Of a stretch of 64,000 nucleotides of DNA, positions 1,847 through 52,762 are shown in pieces (position 1 is the first letter of the stretch; every line of letters begins with the position of its first letter). The position numbers were made by a program, and so were the translations under genes. Origin of the DNA: Erysipelotrichaceae bacterium. Its GTDB lineage: Bacteria > Bacillota_I > Bacilli_A > Erysipelotrichales > Erysipelotrichaceae. Where the stretch lies: positions 124,001 to 188,000 of the forward strand of contig JAFTCJ010000021.1 of assembly GCA_017454765.1 (NCBI GenBank), read 5' to 3'. The notes under the pieces were generated by a model. It was not told the DNA's origin and made no database searches. It saw only the letters and a program-made list of their open reading frames with translations.

Positions 1847-2734
1847 ATGATCTATACCTGTACGACCAATCCGTCTCTGGACTATTACATCACTGTTCCC
1901 AATAAACTGATCGCCGGTGAAAACAACCGCAGCGACATGGAAATGTATGAAGCGGGAGGAAAAGGTGTCAATGTTTCCATCGTACTGAACAATTTCCGCA
2001 TTCCATCGGTCTGCATGGGTTTTTTAGGAGGTTTCACAAGGGATTTCTATCTGACGTTCATTGCCAATTATCCCAACGTACAGCCTTTATTTACAACGAT
2101 CGCTGACAACACCAGGATCAATGTCAAGATCATGGACAGCAAGTATGAGACCAGCATCAATGCCAAAGGTCCGCATATCACGGATGAGGAATTCGCAAGA
2201 TTCAAATCTCGTCTGGGAAACATCTATACCGATGATATCTTTGTCCTGTCCGGCAATATCGAGGAAGAGATCAAGGACAGGATGATCGATCTGGTCCATG
2301 AACTGTGCTCCGACGGCGTCAAGGTCGTTCTGGATACCGACCTGGATATATTGGAAAGATGTCTGGATGTCAGACCGTTCATCGTCAAACTCAATGACAG
2401 GAATCTGAAGGACGATCTGGAAAAGACTGCAAAAGAATACATTGAAAGGGGCGTTGAAAACGCCATCTACAGTGCTCCGCACAAGGCATCTTATATCTTC
2501 ACGAAAGAAAAGACGCTGATGTGTGAGAGTCTCAATGATTCTTTGGTTAATCTGACCGGATCGGCAGACTCCATGGTTGCCGGATTCCTTTACGGATCCA
2601 TACATGGAGCGGATACTGTTGAATCATTCAGATATGCCAATGCGGCATCAGTCGCCACAGGCATGTCCAATGATCTCGGTTCTAAAGAGAAGATCGAGGA
2701 AGTGTTCGATCAGATCGAGGTCAGAGAAGTCTGA
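1847..2734 (+). CDS. PfkB-family sugar kinase (1-phosphofructokinase / tagatose-6-phosphate kinase type)
   Basis: A 295-residue ribokinase-fold kinase. The N-terminal GGKGVNVS motif and NPSLDYYITV opening are those of the FruK/LacC branch, which phosphorylate fructose-1-P or tagatose-6-P. Two family motifs are altered: the usual K-P-N-x-x-E-L is KLNDRNL, and the catalytic GxGD loop reads GSAD in LTGSADSMVAGF. The catalytic Asp and the following SMVAGF are kept, so it may be active. The start has a good ribosome site (GAGGTGA). It ends in a 1-base overlap with the next gene. The class II aldolase 2.3 kb downstream could use its product, but no shared operon is visible; the substrate is unknown. 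Confidence 0.82.
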   Translation: MIYTCTTNPSLDYYITVPNKLIAGENNRSDMEMYEAGGKGVNVSIVLNNFRIPSVCMGFLGGFTRDFYLTFIANYPNVQPLFTTIADNTRINVKIMDSKYETSINAKGPHITDEEFARFKSRLGNIYTDDIFVLSGNIEEEIKDRMIDLVHELCSDGVKVVLDTDLDILERCLDVRPFIVKLNDRNLKDDLEKTAKEYIERGVENAIYSAPHKASYIFTKEKTLMCESLNDSLVNLTGSADSMVAGFLYGSIHGADTVESFRYANAASVATGMSNDLGSKEKIEEVFDQIEVREV

Positions 2735-3306
2735 TGAAGAAAATTCTGATCATCTTTCTGATCCTGATATCCCTTGTATCATGCAAAAAGAAAGAAGAGA
2801 TACCCGTTCCCGGATATACATATGAGATCGTTTCCGAAAGAGTCGATATGTCGGAATATGAAGGCGTATCTTCAACGGATCACAATTTCCGTCTGATCAA
2901 AGTATCGGAACTCTTCAACACGATCGACAGCGGTTCGTCCGGGATTTTCTATCTGGGAAGGACCAACTGCGGCTGCTGTCAGAAGGTATGCCGCTATCTC
3001 AGTGAAGTTGCCAAAGAGCTGAATGTGACCATCTATTATATCGACGTCTACAACGAAGAGGAAGATCTGACGGAAGATAAGCAGCTGCAGGATAAACTCT
3101 ATGATTATCTTTATGAGATACTGGGCACGGACGGCGAAGGAAACAAGACACTGCTGACACCGCAGGTATTCTCAGTCGTCAACGGGAAGTTCTACGGTTC
3201 CCAGATCTGTTTCGATGATTATGAACTGGACAGCACACCGAGCGAGACTCAGATCGAGAGATTCAAGGATTCTTACAGAAAACTGATGAAGCCGTTTACT
3301 GAATAA
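2734..3306 (+). CDS. Thioredoxin-like lipoprotein with CGCC motif
   Basis: A 190-residue predicted membrane-anchored lipoprotein. Residues 1-17 form a lipoprotein signal peptide with lipobox LVSC (lipidated Cys17), followed by a charged KKKEE stretch. A thioredoxin-like fold follows, with a beta strand (IFYLGRTNCG), the redox motif C79-G-C81-C82 and a helix, then an acidic segment and a second strand (LLTPQVFSVVNGKFYG) with the cis-Pro-like TPQ. It resembles the thioredoxin-like bacteriocin-transport-accessory group. It probably acts on thiols or disulfides outside the membrane. It is translated directly after the kinase (TGATG overlap). Function beyond the fold is not known. Confidence 0.72.
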   Translation: MKKILIIFLILISLVSCKKKEEIPVPGYTYEIVSERVDMSEYEGVSSTDHNFRLIKVSELFNTIDSGSSGIFYLGRTNCGCCQKVCRYLSEVAKELNVTIYYIDVYNEEEDLTEDKQLQDKLYDYLYEILGTDGEGNKTLLTPQVFSVVNGKFYGSQICFDDYELDSTPSETQIERFKDSYRKLMKPFTE

Positions 3307-3319
3307 ACGGCTTTTCTTA
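3289..3319 (+). terminator. Rho-independent terminator after the lipoprotein gene
   Basis: A 10-bp stem (AAGCCGTTTA, 3289-3298, with TAAACGGCTT, 3304-3313) with loop CTGAA, followed by TTTTCTT. The stop codon sits inside the 3' arm. Confidence 0.9.
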
Positions 3320-3404
3320 TCATATTTCACATATTCAAGTCAAGACTGGTAATGCGGAAAAAATCTTACTATAATGAAATTACCTAATGGGATACAATGA
3401 AATT

Positions 3405-3570
3405 CCTACATGATATTTACGGACTGTCGAGTGTTAACCGCTGGTGTTGAAGACCTAAAACAGGGATCCTGAAGGCTGTTATAGACGGACCACCTTTTGA
3501 GAAAAGGGAAATTTCTCACCCGTTAGGTCCCTATTAGACAAATAGATTCTTTTCGATTAGAATTTATGAA
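3405..3570 (+). ncRNA. Candidate structured RNA (unclassified; 6S-like is one option)
   Basis: The 281 bases before yneF hold no gene but fold well. Stem GACCTA (3452-3457) pairs with TAGGTC (3524-3529) and encloses two hairpins: AACAG (3459-3463) with CTGTT (3476-3480), and ACGG (3485-3488) with CCGT (3520-3523), the latter capped by TGAGAAA (3498-3504) with TTTCTCA (3512-3518). This is a clean three-way junction. A further small hairpin CTATT/AATAG lies at 3531-3544. Possible -10 boxes are TATAAT (3370-3375) and TACAAT (3393-3398). AGTGTTAACCGC (3430-3441), about 30 nt from the second start, weakly resembles the 6S-1 product-RNA template region. I see no T-box, SRP or tmRNA signature. Ends are approximate. 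Confidence 0.4.
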
Positions 3571-3587
3571 GTAAGGACGGTGTTATT

Positions 3588-3797
3588 ATGGATTTTTGGA
3601 TGTCAATTGTATATTTCGTGATCGGTGCTCTTGTCGGTGCAGTTGCTTCTTATTTCTTCACCAGAAAAAGTTTTGAAAAGCAGCTGAAAGAGAATCCTCC
3701 GATCAATGAAAAGATGATCCGTGCGATGTATGCGCAGATGGGCAGAAAGCCTTCTGAGGCACAGATCCGTGCGATCATGAAGTCCATGGGACAGTAA
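3588..3797 (+). CDS. yneF: YneF family small membrane protein
   Basis: A 69-residue protein with one N-terminal membrane helix (residues ~5-26, IVYFVIGALVGAVASYFF) and a conserved cytoplasmic tail carrying the family hallmark NEKMIRAMYAQMGRKPSEAQ. The family is widespread in Firmicutes, and its role is unknown. The start is set by AAGGACGG at 3573-3580. It lies alone between the structured region upstream and a terminator pair downstream. Confidence 0.93.
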   Translation: MDFWMSIVYFVIGALVGAVASYFFTRKSFEKQLKENPPINEKMIRAMYAQMGRKPSEAQIRAIMKSMGQ

Positions 3798-52550: not shown

Positions 52551-52556
52551 TATAGT
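52551..52556 (+). promoter_or_regulatory. Putative -10 box of the alaS T-box transcript
   Basis: TATAGT shortly after the ECF gene stop; no clear -35 at the right distance. Confidence 0.4.
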
Positions 52557-52561
52557 AGGGA

Positions 52562-52762
52562 AGATGAGTAACATAAAGGACATCTTCAGAGAGTATCTGT
52601 TTGGTGAAAAGATACGATGGTCCTTATGCGAAGCTGCTTCCTTTGAACCGGGGCAATGCCCGGCGTAGCATCTGCGTTAAAGATTTTGAGGGCAGGCAGA
52701 AATGTCTGAACTAAGGTGGTACCGCGTTAATGACGTCCTTAGAGATAGGGGCGTTTTCTTTT
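52562..52762 (+). ncRNA. T-box leader, alanine-specific
   Basis: T-box motif AAGGTGGTACCGCG at 52713-52726. The terminator pairs ACGTCC (52733-52738) with GGGCGT (52749-52754) before TTTCTTTT. Stem I has AGAGAGTATCTGTTTGGTG. The likely specifier is GCT (52633-52635), preceded by GAA and followed by G. Confidence 0.92.

Follow-up and report, generated by a model that had tools for sequence, protein, structure and literature searches.

The window, by which we mean the whole stretch of 64,000 nucleotides of Erysipelotrichaceae bacterium DNA that was analysed, contains 281 bases (3307-3587) between the stop of an upstream gene at 3306 and the start of yneF at 3588. The original prediction that these bases encode nothing agrees with our analysis, in which no + strand ORF of at least 50 aa was found between the two genes, and the candidate -10 boxes it had pointed out upstream of a structured RNA are represented by the TATAAT box at 3370-3375. 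The features of the locus are as follows.

2734-3306, + strand: upstream neighbour, a lipoprotein-like protein whose glutaredoxin-like match is weak (PF05768, E 1.9e-4, below cut-off)
3339-3347, + strand: conserved GTCAAGACT block, 22 nt 5' of the -10 box
3370-3375, + strand: -10 box (TATAAT) of the 6S gene's promoter, with this exact sequence in 30 of 34 genus loci
3382-3530, + strand: almost certainly a 6S RNA (ssrS-like), ends approximate, assigned from RF00013 matches at the same locus in relatives and from covariation
3535-3563, + strand: promoter-like sequence for yneF (TAGACA, 17 nt, TAGAAT), from a consensus scan only
3588-3797, + strand: yneF (UPF0154), downstream neighbour (Pfam PF03672, E 1.2e-29)

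The RNA is about 150 nt long (about 3382-3530) and lies downstream of the TATAAT box, its start being set from the -10 box and its end from the close of stem P1. The -10 box reads GATAAT or AATAAT in the other four genus loci, and a homologue of the upstream lipoprotein-like gene sits 5' of the RNA in all 34. An inverted repeat at 3289-3313 overlaps the end of the upstream gene; it counts as terminator-like for the - strand alone, and a T-rich run is also present 3' of the repeat on the + strand.

Fold of the RNA and the predicted product-RNA template

An alignment of 27 loci revealed a conserved block which extends from the TATAAT box to two mutually closing strands, ACCTAATGGG with CCCATTAGGT. 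For covariation analysis, 30 distinct sequences were aligned by MAFFT with structure ignored; RNAs identical to an existing row (L011, L033-L037 and L039-L056) were counted once, and both L029, a second weak blastn match in genome G018 where no RNA was found, and L038, a partial HMM match (E 0.0016), were excluded from the alignments. The elements of the fold, together with the predicted template and two hairpins that compete with P2, are listed below.

3382-3391 / 3519-3528, + strand: P1, the closing stem (90.7% paired, 9 of 10 pairs changed on both sides)
3399-3407 / 3505-3515, + strand: P2, 3' strand bulged (93.7% paired, 2 of 9 pairs changed on both sides)
3403-3410, + strand: predicted product-RNA template TTCCTACA, from its conservation and the hallmarks of PMC8414754
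3408-3420, + strand: central bubble, 5' side, unpaired between P2 and P3
3421-3491, + strand: apical arm, comprising P3-P4 and a distal CCU/AGG (3454-3456 / 3462-3464)
3421-3428 / 3484-3491, + strand: P3 (90.3% paired, 4 of 7 pairs changed on both sides)
3435-3441 / 3475-3481, + strand: P4 (97.1% paired, 7 of 7 pairs changed on both sides)
3492-3504, + strand: central bubble, 3' side, single-stranded in the rod between P3 and P2
3493-3507, + strand: putative 3'-bubble hairpin CCTTTT-GAG-AAAAGG, competing with the CCU/AGG part of P2
3499-3517, + strand: alternative hairpin GAGAAA/TTTCTC (3499-3504 / 3512-3517), competing with P2

The rod, based on an RNAalifold prediction for 27 of these sequences with adjustments by eye, so that control (b) leans towards it, was paired in 92.9% of 1075 cells; changes on both sides occurred in 23 of 36 pairs and in 120 cells. 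Its covariation score was 0.352 in comparison to 0.153 for the shuffled alignments, none of the 500 shuffles reached any of the measures, and slid versions of the rod paired in only 35.9% to 51.8% of cells. Most of the signal is carried by P1 and P4, P2 being mostly invariant. The covariation supports a 6S rod consisting of a closing stem, a large central bubble and an apical arm. When folded alone, the RNA sequence of the window was no stabler than shuffled versions (z -0.99; 39 of 200 reached its stability), and the structural evidence is therefore comparative only.

The same alignment gave a divided answer for the three-way junction with two internal hairpins that had been proposed at 3452-3529, where the second hairpin was retained, as an alternative state, and the closing stem and the first hairpin were not. 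The closing stem (3452-3458 / 3523-3529) was paired in 73.6% of cells, its four pairs changed on both sides were reached by 316 of 500 shuffles and its covariation score was equalled by 33 of 500, while the first hairpin (ACAG/CTGT) was paired in 55.8% of cells and was reached by 76 of 500. The second hairpin, GAGAAA/TTTCTC, does covary, being 87.1% paired with 5 of 6 pairs changed on both sides and equalled, depending on the measure, by 0 to 3 of 500 shuffles, and it must be an alternative state because it uses the 3' strand of P2.

The block TTCCTACA at 3403-3410 is among the most conserved runs of the alignment, with seven of its eight positions invariant in the 30 sequences and the eighth conserved in 29, and CCTACA of this block is present in 33 of the 34 genus loci. 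It is the likely candidate for the product-RNA template. The hallmarks reported in PMC8414754 are GG at positions 4/5 or 5/6 of the product RNA, a conserved A beside its start, and AA at positions 9/10. Reading the template from C3409 towards the 5' end gives GUAGGAAUUUC, with GG at 4/5 and A3410 beside the start, which was picked to fit these hallmarks; in this register AA is not found at positions 9/10. The product RNA is thus predicted to be 5'-GUAGGAAUUUC..., starting opposite C3409. The original prediction had reached 6S RNA by way of another run, AGTGTTAACCGC (3430-3441), as its template, and this reason did not hold, as the run extends into the apical stem P4 (3435-3441).

A second feature of known 6S RNAs could be assessed in the 3' side of the bubble. 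In passages of PMC8876501, the product RNA unwinds P2 and a hairpin is placed in the 3' bubble. Across the 30 sequences the corresponding hairpin had a mean stem of 5.17 pairs in comparison to 3.71 with the inner letters shuffled, and across its 18 distinct forms 4.78 in comparison to 3.63, with 0 of 2000 shuffles as high in either case. At least four pairs were possible in 26 of the 30 sequences, and relatives have different but likewise complementary stems, for example CCTGAT/ATCAGG or CCTGG/CCAGG, in place of CCTTTT-GAG-AAAAGG. The predicted hairpin shares its AGG with P2, which fits what a release switch would do.

Homology to RF00013 and alternative readings

6S RNA is a widespread RNA which acts as a promoter mimic and sequesters RNA polymerase. 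The Rfam 6S model, RF00013, gave no match to the window copy even at E 10, and none elsewhere in the window's genome; the standard model misses this copy because its sequence has drifted far. For the stretch as a whole, the Rfam search at E up to 10 returned three weak snoRNA matches and nothing else, and these were taken as chance (8.5-14.4 bits versus cut-offs of 40-90). Neither Rfam nor ARAGORN gave a match over cut-off at 3280-3640 for a known riboswitch, T-box, SRP or tmRNA, consistent with the earlier statement that hallmarks of such elements are lacking here. The sole Rfam match over cut-off in the 64-kb window is a T-box leader at 52552-52743 (RF00230, 102.7 bits, cut-off 93).

The covariance-model run that had been proposed for this RNA came out negative for the window copy and positive for the same locus in its relatives. 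At E of 0.001 or less, RF00013 matched 11 of the 36 genus genomes, one of them over cut-off. By cmscan, seven of the 11 loci given (L023-L026, which are relatives of the window RNA by blastn, and L030-L032) aligned to RF00013 positions 1-187 with 36.2 to 46.9 bits, L030 being the only one above the cut-off of 46.4, and at E 0.05 nothing was matched in the other four (L016, L022, L027 and L028).

To extend the comparison, a covariance model, R1, was built from the 30 aligned sequences, that is, the window RNA and its relatives; it contains three sequences fetched through RF00013 (L030-L032), and its agreement with RF00013 is thus not fully independent. Because of these three sequences, the independent link to RF00013 is a nucleotide HMM, which was built solely from the 27 blastn loci, the window's included, with Rfam not used. 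The HMM recovered the RF00013-matched L030, L031 and L032 at E 1e-12, 1.2e-18 and 2e-22, respectively, and also, at E 1e-5 to 3e-17, all ten fetched family loci that score above the RF00013 cut-off.

Conservation of the stretch within the genus exceeds what chance would give: blastn with 3300-3600 found a match in 28 of 36 genomes, the window's own included, and R1 found one match each in 34 of 36, missing G016 (77% complete) and G032 (74% complete). A single R1 match was present in all 11 genus genomes that are at least 90% complete and at most 5% contaminated, and all 11 genus places of RF00013 coincided with R1 places. In a family sample of 145 genomes, R1 matched 124 and RF00013 matched 112 (50 over cut-off); 111 genomes were matched by both, at the same place in every case, while G156 was matched by RF00013 alone and 13 genomes, the window's among them, by R1 alone. 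In the class outside the family, R1 had 49 places in 39 genomes, 41 of which coincided with RF00013 places and included copies that RF00013 scores at 91 to 103 bits, while eight were without an RF00013 match; R1 missed 28 of the 60 RF00013-matched genomes there. Scanning named genomes with an exact pattern gave 24 stretches, of which 21 were from Erysipelotrichaceae (mostly ruminant-gut assemblies), one from Solobacterium, one from Firmicutes (L039) and one from Bacillota (L038, a weak partial match only). From the RF00013 homology in relatives and the covarying rod, there is very little doubt that the non-coding stretch upstream of yneF is the 6S RNA gene of Erysipelotrichaceae bacterium, as one option of the original prediction had it, and the window RNA is a short, diverged and otherwise ordinary member of the known 6S family.

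Two side observations were made in the class survey. Seven class genomes have an R1 match and no RF00013 match at E 0.001, and the places may possibly be 6S genes that Rfam misses (G204:C1:160453, G275:C41:2142, G265:C76:108528, G271:C1:442910, G257:C3:2491, G263:C1:872287 and G259:C13:3936). Tandem RF00013 6S copies occur in other families of the class, with six in G241 (C113:11954-13392), four in G220 (C1:982835-984425) and three in G225 (C1:1772223-1772998).

By analogy with known 6S RNAs, the gene would be transcribed from its own promoter into a rod-shaped RNA of about 150 nt, whose central bubble would mimic an open promoter and thereby bind and block the housekeeping RNA polymerase holoenzyme, probably when growth slows. 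Upon the return of nucleotides, the polymerase would copy a short product RNA from C3409 (the predicted start), this copy would unwind P2, and the freed 3' strand would form the 3'-bubble hairpin, with release of the polymerase. We infer polymerase binding, product-RNA synthesis, release and the growth-phase role by carrying them over from known 6S RNAs. A 6S relative with a changed mechanism, for example core polymerase binding like Ms1 or an altered release, overlaps with the 6S reading in that descent is accepted and function is doubted. The short length and the scores below cut-off would fit such a change, and Ms1 is called structurally related to 6S RNA in passages of PMC9130861; however, the template block, the central bubble and the 3'-bubble hairpin are all conserved, and no Ms1 family was among the Rfam matches on the stretch, so that a changed mechanism appears very unlikely.

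The position of the RNA next to yneF could also suggest a cis-acting leader, either a riboswitch or an attenuator, controlling that gene. In 31 of 34 genus loci, yneF lies on the same strand 24 to 76 nt past the end of the HMM match (L016, in this count, ends at a contig edge), and at L019-L021 the distance between the RNA and yneF is only 24 to 27 nt. The linkage is not a fixed one, however, as the RNA is kept at loci which have no yneF match: none was found in about 1.5 kb downstream at L024 and L025, by tblastn at E 1e-3, which could miss a very diverged yneF, and none in 3.0 kb downstream at L045, which has the same RNA as L024. From other genera, 29 loci were compared, 24 of them among the best 30 R1 family matches and five among the best 10 RF00013 matches; yneF was located downstream in 16 (14 within 150 nt) and was absent from about 1.5 kb in 11, while the remaining two, L108 and L117, have only about 300 and 500 nt of downstream sequence. 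In addition, 22 of 34 genus loci have a promoter-like sequence 3' of the RNA, which would provide yneF with a promoter of its own, no terminator-like + strand site lies between the RNA and yneF in the window, and the RF00013 homology of the same locus counts against a leader as well. The yneF riboswitch that the original prediction had allowed for is unlikely on these grounds, and we regard the leader reading in general as extremely improbable. For the 6S RNA itself, since no terminator-like + strand site directly follows it, the 3' end may be made by processing.

The remaining option, a new structured-RNA family other than 6S, would be in keeping with the window itself having no Rfam match at E up to 10 apart from the weak snoRNA matches, but it deserves hardly any credence given that the same locus in relatives aligns to RF00013 over its whole length and that R1 places account for 111 of the 112 places matched by RF00013 in the family sample.

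Promoter, significance and comparison with known 6S RNAs

The promoter region of the 6S gene has a feature of its own, in that no TTGACA-type -35 was seen at the usual spacing from the -10 box, and 29 of 34 genus loci carry GTCAAGACT 5' of the -10, most often (24 loci) at a distance of 22 nt, and otherwise at 23 nt (three) or 21 nt (two). The pattern GTCAAGA-N22..26-TATAAT occurs at 39 places in the 36 genus genomes in comparison to 19 for the control, and all 25 of those places that read GTCAAGACT adjoin R1 (6S) places. Judged by eye, the GTCAAG core precedes the -10 in many copies from other genera and is absent from several. The block is partly palindromic (AGTC-AA-GACT), or may be viewed as a -35 in reverse orientation. 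Tentatively, and with somewhat less than even confidence, we propose that the family uses an unusual promoter dedicated to the 6S gene, in which GTCAAGACT might be bound by an activator or a repressor and so couple 6S levels to a single signal.

Searches for a wider regulon were also performed. The heptad repeat of CtsR-type operators had 31 places with up to 2 mismatches in the window's genome in comparison to 87 in the backwards control, and a CtsR-type operator at GTCAAGACT was rejected as there was no sign of a regulon. The 15-mer AGTCAAGACTNGTAA had its only exact match in the window's genome at the 6S promoter, and with up to 2 mismatches it had five places there in comparison to 20 in the control, so that again no regulon was found.

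In general, the analysis fills an annotation gap, as RF00013 had no match over cut-off in 94 of the 144 other family genomes sampled and R1 finds the RNA in 124 of 145; the R1 alignment could be used to extend the Rfam 6S model. In biological terms, neither the RNA nor its expected role is much of a surprise, and it is the promoter element that could repay a test. The open literature searched held no link between 6S RNA and Erysipelotrich bacteria (the passages of PMC6429828 do not connect them), and nothing joining 6S RNA with yneF or with tandem copies, from which we do not claim that this locus is unpublished.

In comparison to RF00013, seven of the 11 loci given align end to end and share the same rod, with its closing stem, central bubble and apical arm, and the core GGUGU..GGA..CCUAAA..CCCACCU is common to both, whereas the window copy scores below detection. 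The RNAs are mostly about 150 to 165 nt long in Erysipelotrichaceae, whereas in the rest of the class most full-length RF00013 places span about 175 to 200 nt; in the cmscan alignments, the closing stem and its flanks account for most of the missing bases. The 6S RNAs of lactic acid bacteria, as described in passages of PMC8414754, resemble the present one: they are single-copy, their neighbours are conserved, a 3' hairpin faces the 5' bulge and, as predicted here, GG and a flanking A are found at the product-RNA template. They differ in their neighbours, which are rarA and uspA rather than the pfkB-type kinase, glutaredoxin-like lipoprotein and yneF found here, and in the AA of the product RNA, which lies at positions 9/10 there and would lie at 6/7 here. 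With Bacillus subtilis 6S-1, in passages of PMC8876501, the RNA has in common a central bubble, a P2 which would be opened by the product RNA, and a small hairpin in the 3' bubble, while the product RNA is predicted to start at about nt 28 here in comparison to nt 40 in 6S-1.
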